DNA from: an uncultured Gemmata sp.
GTDB taxonomy: Bacteria; Planctomycetota; Planctomycetia; Gemmatales; Gemmataceae
DNA: 64,000 nucleotides
Assembly (NCBI GenBank): GCA_937924775.1
Contig: CALDUT010000001.1
Location: forward strand, 434,001-498,000
Direction of reading: 5' to 3'
Every line of letters starts with the position of its first letter. Positions within the stretch are counted from its first letter, which is position 1. Below, piece by piece: positions 38,076 to 41,069 of this stretch. The position numbers and the translations under genes were made by a program. The notes under the pieces are model-generated. The model worked only from the letters and a program-made list of their open reading frames with translations, was not told the origin of the DNA and made no database searches.

Positions 38076-39353
38076 TCAGGCCGCGGCCACGACCGGCAGC
38101 ACATACGGCCCTTTGGGAATGACCGCCAGTTTCGCGTGCGGCCCGTACTCTGCCAGCGCATCGGCAACGGCCTGTTCCACGCTCGCGACCGGTTCGACCC
38201 GGCAACGCCGCAGGACCTCCGCTGGCAGCCCATCGCTCACAACCTTCACCCGGCAATGCTTTAACACTTTCTTGAGCATTACCAGTTGCCACTCGTCCAT
38301 CTCGCAGGTGTCGGATTGCGAAGGTTGGTCGTAGGCTCCGGTCGCCGCGTAGCGGTCGAGCAGGTCGCGGAACTCCGGGCTGCCCAGACCTTCGGTCAGG
38401 CTCGCAGCCAATATGATGGTACCGCCGCGGCGGACGATGGGCAGTGCCCCGGTTAGACCTTTCACGGCTTGGTACCACGTTGTATCGAGGGGATAGCCGG
38501 CACAACTGGTGACGACCACATCCACCGGATGAGGAACCCCCGCGCGAACCACCTTCTGGCAGAAGGCCACCCCCGCTTCCCAGGCCTGAATCATGTCGCC
38601 GGCCCACAACCCGGTGATCTGACGGCTCCCGTCAATGCAAACGTTAACAATGAAATCGCAACCAGCCATCTGGGCAATGAGGGTATTTTCTTCGTGAACC
38701 GGGTTACCCTCCAGGCTGCCGCAATCGGCCTTGGGGTGTTCGAGAAAACGCGGCCCATGCCAGACTTTGACCGTTTCCAACCCCGCGAGACCGGGGCAGA
38801 TCACCTTCCGACCGCCGCTGTAACCCGCCATCAGGTGCGGTTCGATCAGGCCGGTGGTGATTTTCAATTCGGCACGCGTGTAGCGTTTGTCGATCCACAC
38901 CGGCACGCCGCGGGGGGTGGTGCCCAGAAAATCGTGTTCGTCGTGGGCTTTGCCGTGGTGGTTTTCGCAGCGGTAGTGGGTGGCGACATATTCACCCACC
39001 AGTTCGATCAATTCGTCGCCGACATTGGGGCGGTGCAAGCCCGTGGCCACGAGGATGGTAATTCCGCTGCGGGGTACTCCCGCTGCTTCGAGCGTCTGGA
39101 GAATCGGCGGCAGCAAGAAGGCATTGGGAACCGGCCGGGTGATGTCACAAACGACGACACAGGCAGTCTTTTTGCCACGGGCCAGGTCGGCCAGCGGTGG
39201 GGTGCCGATGGGCTGCGCCAGGGCGGCCCGAAGAGCCGCGAGGGGGTCCCCCAGCGGCGGAGCGGATTGAATCGTCAGCGGGGGAGCAAGCAGCCGCTCG
39301 TCGGGCAGCGTGACGATTAGCCCGGTTTTTCCATAATCGAGGGTAACACGCAT
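38076..39353 (-). CDS. larA: Nickel-dependent lactate racemase-family protein (LarA-like)
   Basis: 425 aa, the usual length. LarA racemises lactate, or a related 2-hydroxy acid, using the nickel-pincer nucleotide cofactor. The key residues are present one position earlier than in Lactiplantibacillus LarA: His107 in ATGLHRP, His173 and Lys183 in [17 protein letters not shown] (the Lys that tethers the cofactor), and His199 in VKVWHGPRF, the nickel ligand. DITRPVPN near residue 70 is also typical. Cofactor synthesis needs LarB, LarC and LarE, none of which is in this window. LarA homologues act on many hydroxy acids, so the substrate is open. Monocistronic. Confidence 0.9.
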
Positions 39354-39492: not shown

Positions 39493-39720
39493 ATGTCTAT
39501 CGATAAAAGCCTCAAGCGCAAAGGCGGTTTGGCGAAACAGCGCTGCGTGCTGACGCGGGCCGAACGGATTGCCAAAATGATCGAAAATGGACAATTCCCG
39601 GAAGGTCGTAGCCCCTACGGATTACCGAAAACCCGCGTGCAGAAGATTGTGCTGAAGAAGAAGTCGAAGAAGGAAGCCGCCGAAGGCACAGCCCCCGCGG
39701 GCGGTGCCGCCAAGAAGTAG
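39493..39720 (+). CDS. PVC-type small basic protein
   Basis: 75 aa, very rich in Lys and Arg. The sequence MSIDKSLKRKGGLAKQR, then VLTRAERI and GLPKTRVQKIVLKKKSKK, matches the conserved 'small basic protein' of Planctomycetes, Verrucomicrobia and Chlamydiae, thought from its charge and conservation to associate with the ribosome or RNA. The Ala/Gly-rich end is probably disordered. It starts 139 bases upstream from the divergent larA gene and ends 94 bases before folK. No clear ribosome binding site is visible. Confidence 0.88.
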   Translation: MSIDKSLKRKGGLAKQRCVLTRAERIAKMIENGQFPEGRSPYGLPKTRVQKIVLKKKSKKEAAEGTAPAGGAAKK

Positions 39721-39813: not shown

Positions 39814-41028
39814 ATGCCCATTGCGTATGTGGCTCTCGGTTCGAACCTCGGGGACCGTTTCGCCCATCTCTCGGCCGCCATACGCCGTTTGCGGGCCGAA
39901 CCGGGGATTCGGGTTCACGCCGTCTCATCCTTCTATGTCACGGCCCCGGTGAATTGCCCGCCGGGTTCCGGGGAATTCCTCAATGCCGTCGCTGCGATCG
40001 AAACCCACCGGAGCCCTGCCAATCTGTTGCGGCTGCTTCTGGGCATAGAACGACAGTTCGGTCGCATTCGCAGTCAACCTAACGCCCCGCGAACGCTCGA
40101 TCTCGACCTCATCCTGTACGACGATTACATCCTTGCATCCGAGGAACTGACCTTGCCGCATCCACGGATGCACGAACGGGCGTTCGTGATGGTCCCGCTA
40201 GCGGAGATCGCCCCCGATGCCCGGCATCCGGGGCTGAAGAAGACCGCACGCGAACTCGCCGCGGCGACAGACGCCAGCGGCCTTCGTATCGCCACGCCAG
40301 ACCCCGCGGACCGTCCGCGGCTATTGGTGGGGATGCGGGCCCTGGTGACCGGTTCGACCCGGGGCATTGGTGCCAGCATCGCAGAAGCGCTCGCCGAACA
40401 GGGAGCCGAAGTCATTCGCCACGGCCGCCGACCGGCTCCAGGACGGCATCTCGTGGCCGATCTTCGCGACCCGGTGCAGGTCGATCGACTCGCCCACGAC
40501 GCTTGGCAGTTGCTGAACGGCCTGGATATGCTCATCTGCAATGCCGGAGCAGATATTCTCACCGGCGAAGGACCGCAATGGCCATTCGACAGGAAACTCG
40601 AAGAGCTACTGGCGGTGGATGTGAAAGCCACCATCCGCTTGGCCCGGACCATCGGCCAGCAGATGAAAACGCAGGGCCGCGGCTGCATCATCACGATGGG
40701 CTGGGATCAGGCCGAAACCGGCATGGAAGGCGATAGCGGGGAATTGTTTGCCGCTGTCAAAGGCGCGGTGATGAGCTTCACACGCAGCCTCGCGAAAAGC
40801 CTGGCTCCCGAAGTGCGGGTCAATTGCTTGGCCCCGGGGTGGATTCGCACCGCGTGGGGGGAAACCGCCAGCGACGTCTGGCAAGAGCGGGTTCGCCGGG
40901 AAACACCGTTGGGTATCTGGGGGCTACCGGAGGATGTCGCCGCGGCGGCCGTGTGGCTGGCCAGCCCAGCCGCCCAATTCATCACGGGGCAAACCATCCG
41001 CGTCAACGGCGGAGCCATTCGTGCTTGA
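39814..41028 (+). CDS. folK: FolK-SDR fusion with degenerate SDR catalytic site
   Basis: 404 aa from ATG 39814. Residues 1-165 are HPPK (FolK), which transfers pyrophosphate from ATP to 6-hydroxymethyl-dihydropterin in folate synthesis: YVALGSNLGDR (5-15), the GSGEFLNAVAAI region, RTLDLDLILYDD (93-104) with the two catalytic Asp, and LPHPRMHERAFVMVPLAEIA. Residues 173-404 are a short-chain dehydrogenase/reductase: TGSTRGIG (179-186, NAD(P) loop), NAG (243-245). The catalytic Tyr of YxxxK is Phe312 (FAAVK, Lys316 kept), and the catalytic Ser position in TMGW (294-297) is not Ser. The SDR half could be a pterin-reductase relative with a changed mechanism, or only a binding or structural domain. 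Confidence 0.88.
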   Translation: MPIAYVALGSNLGDRFAHLSAAIRRLRAEPGIRVHAVSSFYVTAPVNCPPGSGEFLNAVAAIETHRSPANLLRLLLGIERQFGRIRSQPNAPRTLDLDLILYDDYILASEELTLPHPRMHERAFVMVPLAEIAPDARHPGLKKTARELAAATDASGLRIATPDPADRPRLLVGMRALVTGSTRGIGASIAEALAEQGAEVIRHGRRPAPGRHLVADLRDPVQVDRLAHDAWQLLNGLDMLICNAGADILTGEGPQWPFDRKLEELLAVDVKATIRLARTIGQQMKTQGRGCIITMGWDQAETGMEGDSGELFAAVKGAVMSFTRSLAKSLAPEVRVNCLAPGWIRTAWGETASDVWQERVRRETPLGIWGLPEDVAAAAVWLASPAAQFITGQTIRVNGGAIRA

Positions 41029-41069
41029 TTGACGAGCTGACGCCAGAAGCTGGCGAGTCTGTGTTTTAC

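Follow-up and report, generated by a model that had tools for sequence, protein, structure and literature searches.

The window, that is, the whole stretch of 64,000 nucleotides analysed here, holds at 39814-41028 of the forward strand a single open reading frame, with an ATG start at 39814 and a stop codon ending at 41028, which encodes 404 amino acids and joins HPPK (FolK), a kinase of the folate pathway, to a short-chain dehydrogenase/reductase (SDR). The HPPK domain comprises residues 1-140 (39814..40233, +; delimited by PF01288 and TIGR01498), followed by a linker of residues 141-171 (40234..40326, +; delimited by the spacing across 80 fusions) and by the SDR domain, residues 172-404 plus the stop codon (40327..41028, +; PF13561/PF00106, an AlphaFold2 model and fold matches). 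Across the 80 fusions, the stretch from residue 140 to 171 measures 17-37 amino acids, with a median of 29.

The HPPK half matches PF01288 at residues 5-134 (E 1.5e-38; 132.2 bits against a Pfam cut-off of 25.7) and the folK model TIGR01498 (139.7 bits against 54.1), in agreement with the original prediction of a complete HPPK fused to an SDR. Residues R93, D96, D98, N57, R122 and F124 are each present in 80/80 aligned fusions; the first three, lying in the RTLDLDL segment, we take to be metal- and substrate-binding residues of HPPK. Judged by its sequence, this half is complete, and kinase activity is predicted for it. The SDR half matches adh_short_C2 at residues 182-400 (E 8.8e-41; Pfam), and the Pfam matches of the fusion protein comprise the HPPK and SDR families only. 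Within its own genome (4.79 Mb) the fusion is the sole match to the HPPK part, the 16 further matches all falling in the SDR part; since no other HPPK match was found in this genome, all pterin pathways of the organism seem to depend on a single HPPK. HPPK is known to occur fused to FolP and to FolB; the present fusion likewise involves a pterin-pathway enzyme, but its partner is an SDR. A FolK-SDR fusion was named in no title or abstract opening found by a word search of the open literature.

Directly upstream of the fusion and on the same strand lies a gene for a small basic protein (39493-39717, +; TIGR04137, 81 bits against 50), and a gene for a LarA-like nickel-dependent racemase, whose best model remains below its cut-off, adjoins the fusion on the opposite strand (38076-39353, -). 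A pattern scan returned three promoter-like sites against a shuffle mean of 0.5 and two terminator-like sites against a mean of 1.8, one of the latter at 41041-41055, just past the fusion stop. A plasmid search yielded 216 records, every one below 60% identity.

Active site and family placement of the SDR half

Sequence, model and fold matches agree that the SDR half has the Rossmann fold of classical SDRs, with a TGX3GXG loop and an NAG motif. The nucleotide loop TGSTRGIG spans residues 179-186 (40348..40371, +), with G180 and G184 conserved in 80/80 fusions, and NAG spans residues 243-245, so that both elements are kept as originally described; TMGW at 294-297 and FAAVK at 312-316 were likewise read from the translation. 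Of the catalytic tetrad Asn-Ser-Tyr-Lys of classical SDRs, Lys316 alone is retained, the other places being taken by Asp269, Trp297 and Phe312. In seven SDR paralogues from the same genome, the aligned columns hold Tyr at 312, Ser at 297 and Asn at 269 (7/7 each), which bears out the earlier observations that FAAVK puts Phe312 at the Tyr place and that TMGW lacks the Ser. The Asp at the Asn place, and D298 following W297, were not noted in the original prediction.

Of the 102 genomes of the order, 92 contain the fusion (E<=1e-40); 80 of these fusions were aligned and 12 left out. Adding 26 closely related SDRs that are not fused and come from other families of planctomycetes gives a family of 106 sequences with a sharply defined site. 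D247, a family-specific Asp after NAG (40552..40554, +), occurs in 106/106, with Asp in 0/10 other SDRs; D269, at the tetrad Asn place (40618..40620, +), occurs in 106/106, with Asn in 10/10 other SDRs; G296, W297 and D298 (40699..40707, +), of which W297 stands in the catalytic Ser column, are each found in 106/106, with Ser at that column in 10/10 other SDRs; and F312, at the catalytic Tyr place (40747..40749, +), is found in 105/106, with Tyr in 10/10 other SDRs. The catalytic Lys, K316 (40759..40761, +), is kept in 80/80 fusions, 29/29 of the standalone relatives listed and 7/7 paralogues, while T250, G303, R335, W343, W348 and W356 are also conserved in 106/106. Taken by group, D247, D269, G296, W297, D298, F312, K316, R335 and W343 are each present in 80/80 fusions, and the unfused relatives have D247, D269, W297, D298 and K316 in 26/26 and F312 in 25/26. 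The one departure is a close unfused member (L103, genome G234) with Tyr for Phe312, which nevertheless keeps W297, D298 and D269 and constitutes a natural test of the Tyr.

A second, named set consists of the best 80 of 527 relatives: 19 fused loci and 61 free-standing ones, the latter showing no HPPK match in their available flanks. Since this set (L122-L201) was retrieved with patterns containing GWDQ or APGW, the way it was assembled accounts for part of its conservation of W297, D298 and W343; those patterns played no role in picking the 80 fusions and 26 standalone relatives, though their organisms overlap with the named set. Record titles of these best 80 are planctomycete except for two reading 'bacterium', some metagenome bins being doubtfully named, and 6/19 fused loci are titled Gemmataceae and 1/19 Gemmatales. 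Tyr at position 312 was found in 0/19 fused and 2/61 unfused members. A normal YxxxK is thus nearly absent among close homologues, with Tyr in 0/80 fusions, 1/26 close unfused and 2/61 named unfused relatives (overlapping sets), and the alignment of homologous fusions shows Phe312 and Gly296-Trp297 conserved in 80/80: the usual proton donor is gone, as had been proposed.

Because the Tyr-less site is invariant in the fusions and nearly the same residue set recurs in unfused relatives, it is not a decayed one; decay or sequencing error as the source of the odd residues is ruled out by this invariance. On the evidence of sequence conservation, these residues are a signature of the SDR family, not damage, and an invariant but non-canonical active site fits altered chemistry, the first of the two options offered by the original prediction.

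The AlphaFold2 model of the fusion, built on 81 sequences, has a mean pLDDT of 93.3 and a pTM of 0.74. Among known structures, the SDR half matches FabG-type classical reductases, with 4nbt on top (Z 32.0, rmsd 2.1 over 229 residues), and its profile likewise matches these best; the Asn, Ser and Tyr of these enzymes are, however, Asp, Trp and Phe here. The fold gives no answer on function, and the absence of the pteridine reductase PTR1 from the 50 structural matches listed counts neither for nor against a relationship. A rapidly built tree with 75 sequences (26 standalone relatives, seven other SDRs and 42 of the 80 fusions; SH-aLRT support only) places this SDR family on one side of a branch and the seven other SDRs on the other, with support of 100. 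It contains three changes between fused and standalone labels, and a single change, as a single origin of the fusion would give, is also compatible with it.

Co-occurrence and linkage with tetrahydromethanopterin genes

Tetrahydromethanopterin (H4MPT) is a C1-carrying cofactor; MCH denotes methenyl-H4MPT cyclohydrolase and MptG is RFAP synthase. The SDR was detected at E<=1e-49 in 27/294 genomes of the phylum, spanning seven family codes (f1, f3, f4, f53, f55, f70 and f76). Weaker matches (in G310, G158, G227, G243 and G258, and a second one in G367) were omitted; the three of these six that were inspected (L119-L121) have the Ser, Tyr and Asn. MCH (PF02289) was present in 28/294 genomes, always over cut-off, and these 28 also have an MptG-like protein (TIGR00144, E<=1e-10), which exceeds the curated cut-off in 17. 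Both genes accompany the SDR in 27/27 SDR-positive genomes, and the SDR is present in 27/28 genomes with both. Mtd (PF09176) was found in 27/294, namely in all MCH-positive genomes except G382, which is 83% complete. The association of the SDR with MCH and MptG-like genes gives a Fisher p of 2e-37 with genomes as units and kinship ignored, and 3e-9 at family level (seven positive family codes against 70 negative ones, the 70 being assumed); both values are rough because of kinship, shared ancestry inflating the co-occurrence counts.

Within the order, MCH was found in 100/102 genomes. Ten genomes gave no fusion at E<=1e-40: in one of them an HPPK fragment of 51 residues sits at the end of a contig, and the other nine (G002, G005, G027, G034, G049, G057, G076, G077 and G082) possess MCH and gave no HPPK match at 1e-12; three of these (G027, G034 and G049) have a strong DHFR match. 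No GWD occurs in those SDR matches of the fusion-less genomes that were recovered as loci. The missing fusions may reflect loss or assembly gaps.

One genome of the phylum sample, G286 (L253), is alone in having MCH, MptG-like and Mtd genes and no SDR. It showed no AfpA or MJ0208-family match over cut-off, and no obvious replacement reductase was seen by eye around its MCH, DHPS-like, MptG-like and DHFR genes. As this genome has H4MPT genes without the SDR, the latter is not universal and must be dispensable or replaceable.

Gene linkage, computed on the named set, points the same way: at least one H4MPT-type neighbour occurs at 33/61 free-standing loci versus 0/19 fused loci. A DHPS-like gene lies close to the free-standing SDR at 32/61 loci, and at 16 of these 32 the two frames overlap or are at most 12 bases apart, the overlaps being upper bounds since frames were taken stop to stop. 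Other neighbours at the 61 loci are pterin-4a-carbinolamine dehydratase (10), MptG-like (9), DUF447 (9), MCH (7) and MptN-like ligase (7), and formylmethanofuran-type genes adjoin the SDR at 5 to 8 loci. These identities were settled on examples: MCH, PTPS and Pterin_4a scored over their curated cut-offs, and PabB over that of one pabB model; for the MptN-like, DHPS-like (TIGR00284) and MptG-like genes, the best-matching model stayed below its curated cut-off; FwdA and FwdB were named by eye. In Singulisphaera acidiphila (L157), for instance, the SDR is flanked by FwdB-like and DHPS-like genes within an H4MPT/methanofuran cluster that also includes MptN-like, MCH, FwdC, FTR, FwdA-like, DUF447 and MptG-like genes. 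The remaining 28/61 loci are without an H4MPT-type neighbour, some of their contigs being short. An ArsR/SmtB-type regulator is encoded upstream of the SDR on the opposite strand at 24/61 named standalone loci (e.g. L132, L142, L144 and L160). In the genome of the present fusion, contig 4 carries MCH, MptN-like, CitG and PTPS genes, contig 13 carries DHPS-like, PabB, DUF447 and MptG-like genes, and contig 1 carries Mtd.

The partner pathway of the SDR is hence H4MPT synthesis and not folate alone, its membership in the pathway being strongly supported; the SDR forms a planctomycete family of its own, linked to the making of H4MPT.

A candidate for dihydromethanopterin reductase

According to the review by Chistoserdova (2016; PMC5020050), planctomycetes have H4MPT genes, but the Afp (DmrB) gene was not recognised in their genomes, and DmrA is a non-homologous substitute for Afp in Methylobacterium. 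Burton et al. (2018; PMC6193120) assign the final step of H4MPT synthesis to DmrA, a DHFR relative that is almost exclusively alphaproteobacterial, describe AfpA/DmrB and DmrX as flavoproteins that are not homologous to it, and present a tree in which the planctomycete homologues all group with DfrA. Our search covered 32 genomes, the 28 with H4MPT genes plus another four from the order: AfpA (TIGR02699) and the MJ0208 family (TIGR02700) each exceeded the cut-off in 0/32, with partial sub-cut-off matches of at most 40 bits in 10/32 and 30/32, respectively. The control genomes were over cut-off in 2/14 for each model, with no bacterial AfpA/DmrB among the positive controls, and DmrA was judged through PF00186 and PMC6193120, not through a model of its own.

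The SDR fills this gap best, since in the phylum sample it accompanies H4MPT genes almost everywhere, often in their cluster, and has a cofactor-binding fold. It is probably a reductase of H4MPT biosynthesis, the likeliest identity being that of the planctomycete dihydromethanopterin reductase. In 2011, an estimated seven methanopterin proteins were counted as unknown (PMC3087415); with further pathway steps unassigned, co-occurrence does not single out the dihydromethanopterin reductase step. The proposed reaction would be shared with DmrA of Methylobacterium extorquens, namely a flavin-free reduction by NADPH that completes H4MPT synthesis, but DmrA is a DHFR relative whereas the fusion partner here is an SDR; it would also be shared with the FMN-containing dihydromethanopterin reductases AfpA/DmrB and DmrX, which differ in being flavoproteins. 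As far as Pfam matches go (HPPK and SDR only), the fusion protein has no homology to any of the three.

In the proposed mechanism, the HPPK half would make 6-hydroxymethyl-dihydropterin diphosphate, a precursor for both folate and methanopterin, the methanopterin branch running from there through a dihydropteroate-synthase-like enzyme. The SDR with NADPH would then turn a 7,8-dihydropterin, either dihydromethanopterin or one of its precursors, into the tetrahydropterin. Hydride would pass from NADPH to C6 of the pterin, K316 would still hold the nicotinamide ribose, and the N5 proton would be supplied by a water molecule that D298, D247 or D269 positions or charges, in the manner of DHFR and of the second PTR1 step; these three carboxylates are candidates for positioning either the water or the guanidine edge of the pterin. 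With the N5 proton drawn from water, the SDR Tyr would not be needed. In the first reduction by PTR1 the Tyr protonates the pterin, and in the second, from dihydro to tetrahydro, the proton is taken from an activated water, as postulated for DHFR (PMC8996148 and PMC1618733). By analogy, an enzyme that meets dihydropterins only could lose the Tyr and keep the carboxylates. H203, conserved in 105/106 of the family, and a nearby Arg resemble the 2'-phosphate pocket of PTR1, given as His38-Arg39-Ser40 in PMC8996148, a putative likeness that would point to NADPH as the cofactor.

The SDR shares with PTR1 and FolM its family, the proposed NADPH-dependent pterin reduction and an Asp near the Ser place. 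FolM keeps the Tyr, as does PTR1, and that these known SDR pterin reductases do so speaks against the dihydromethanopterin reductase reading. The PTR1 triad is Asp-Tyr-Lys (PMC8996148), whereas the fusion SDR has Phe312, with D298 one residue past the Ser column. The PTR1/FolM motif TGX3RXG (PMC1971073) is absent from it, the loop TGSTRGIG being of the TGX3GXG form, and the NCBIfam pteridine reductase model PRK09135 scores 119.1 bits, below its cut-off of 288. Membership of PTR1/FolM was therefore rejected on motif, triad and model cut-off.

Alternative functions and implications

An extension of the dihydromethanopterin reductase reading, which we regard as rather unlikely, is that one Tyr-less SDR reduces both dihydromethanopterin and dihydrofolate, so that the fusion would open and close both cofactor pathways; it concerns the lineages in which searches turned up no FolA and no dihydromethanopterin reductase of a known kind.

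A rather improbable but still serious alternative is that the SDR instead opens the ribofuranose ring in the arm that stems from RFAP, yielding the 1-deoxyribitol of methanopterin, with hydride added to a quinone-methide-like intermediate. To our knowledge, this reduction exists as a step of the methanopterin pathway and has no assigned enzyme. Its chemistry likewise needs no SDR Tyr, co-occurrence and linkage fit it as well as they fit a dihydromethanopterin reductase, and the gene for the SDR frequently abuts the DHPS-like one, near whose step the ring-opening reduction would fall. Such an enzyme would, however, be expected in all H4MPT makers, whereas the best 80 of 527 relatives are planctomycete-titled but for two 'bacterium' records, and the dihydromethanopterin reductase gap would be left unfilled.

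More improbable still is a purely folate enzyme, in which the SDR is a dihydrofolate reductase replacing FolA. The DHFR domain PF00186 is absent from the own genome and from 87/102 order genomes in all, as well as from 19/27 SDR-positive genomes of the phylum sample, and it is not among the Pfam matches of the fusion protein. The SDR nonetheless tracks MCH and MptG-like genes, not DHFR: DHFR occurs in 8/27 SDR-positive versus 97/267 SDR-negative genomes (105/294 in all; p 0.54), which indicates no association, most DHFR-less genomes of the phylum sample are also without the SDR, and across the order genomes the comparison of fusion and DHFR gives p 0.16. As a sole role, DHFR replacement was rejected, since the presence of the SDR is not linked to a lack of DHFR. 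The FolM-like folate role as such, which the original prediction had found sensible, is not supported either, on the same point and given the absence of TGX3RXG and the H4MPT company of the gene. In the phylum sample as a whole, 189/294 genomes, the own genome included, have no PF00186 match.

A C1-level H4MPT enzyme such as methylene-H4MPT dehydrogenase would also co-occur with MCH, but it is very unlikely here, and that dehydrogenase identity was rejected, as the known enzyme (PF09176) is already present in 26/27 SDR-positive genomes, the exception being the 83% complete G382. Equally remote is a pseudo-enzyme that regulates HPPK by binding NADP(H) or pterin without catalysis: the Ser, Tyr and Asn of the tetrad are lost, yet K316 is kept, the carboxylate-rich site is conserved and not eroded, and free-standing SDRs without HPPK keep D247, D269, W297 and D298 in 26/26; binding of NADP(H) or pterin as the only function, the second option originally offered, is less likely given the invariance of K316 and of the acidic set.

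The dihydromethanopterin reductase reading puts forward a candidate gene, present in 27/28 sampled H4MPT-positive planctomycete genomes, for the gap noted in PMC5020050, and the Tyr-less SDR offers a sharp residue signature usable for annotation. If the reading is true, one reaction would have a third solution, not homologous to the others, in this family, which would also be a natural instance of an SDR working without the catalytic Tyr; a dual-substrate SDR, if true, would be a third dihydromethanopterin reductase class and a new DHFR class at once. The role of H4MPT in non-methylotrophs was called enigmatic in the same review (PMC5020050), and a dihydromethanopterin reductase of this kind would provide a handle on that role in these bacteria.
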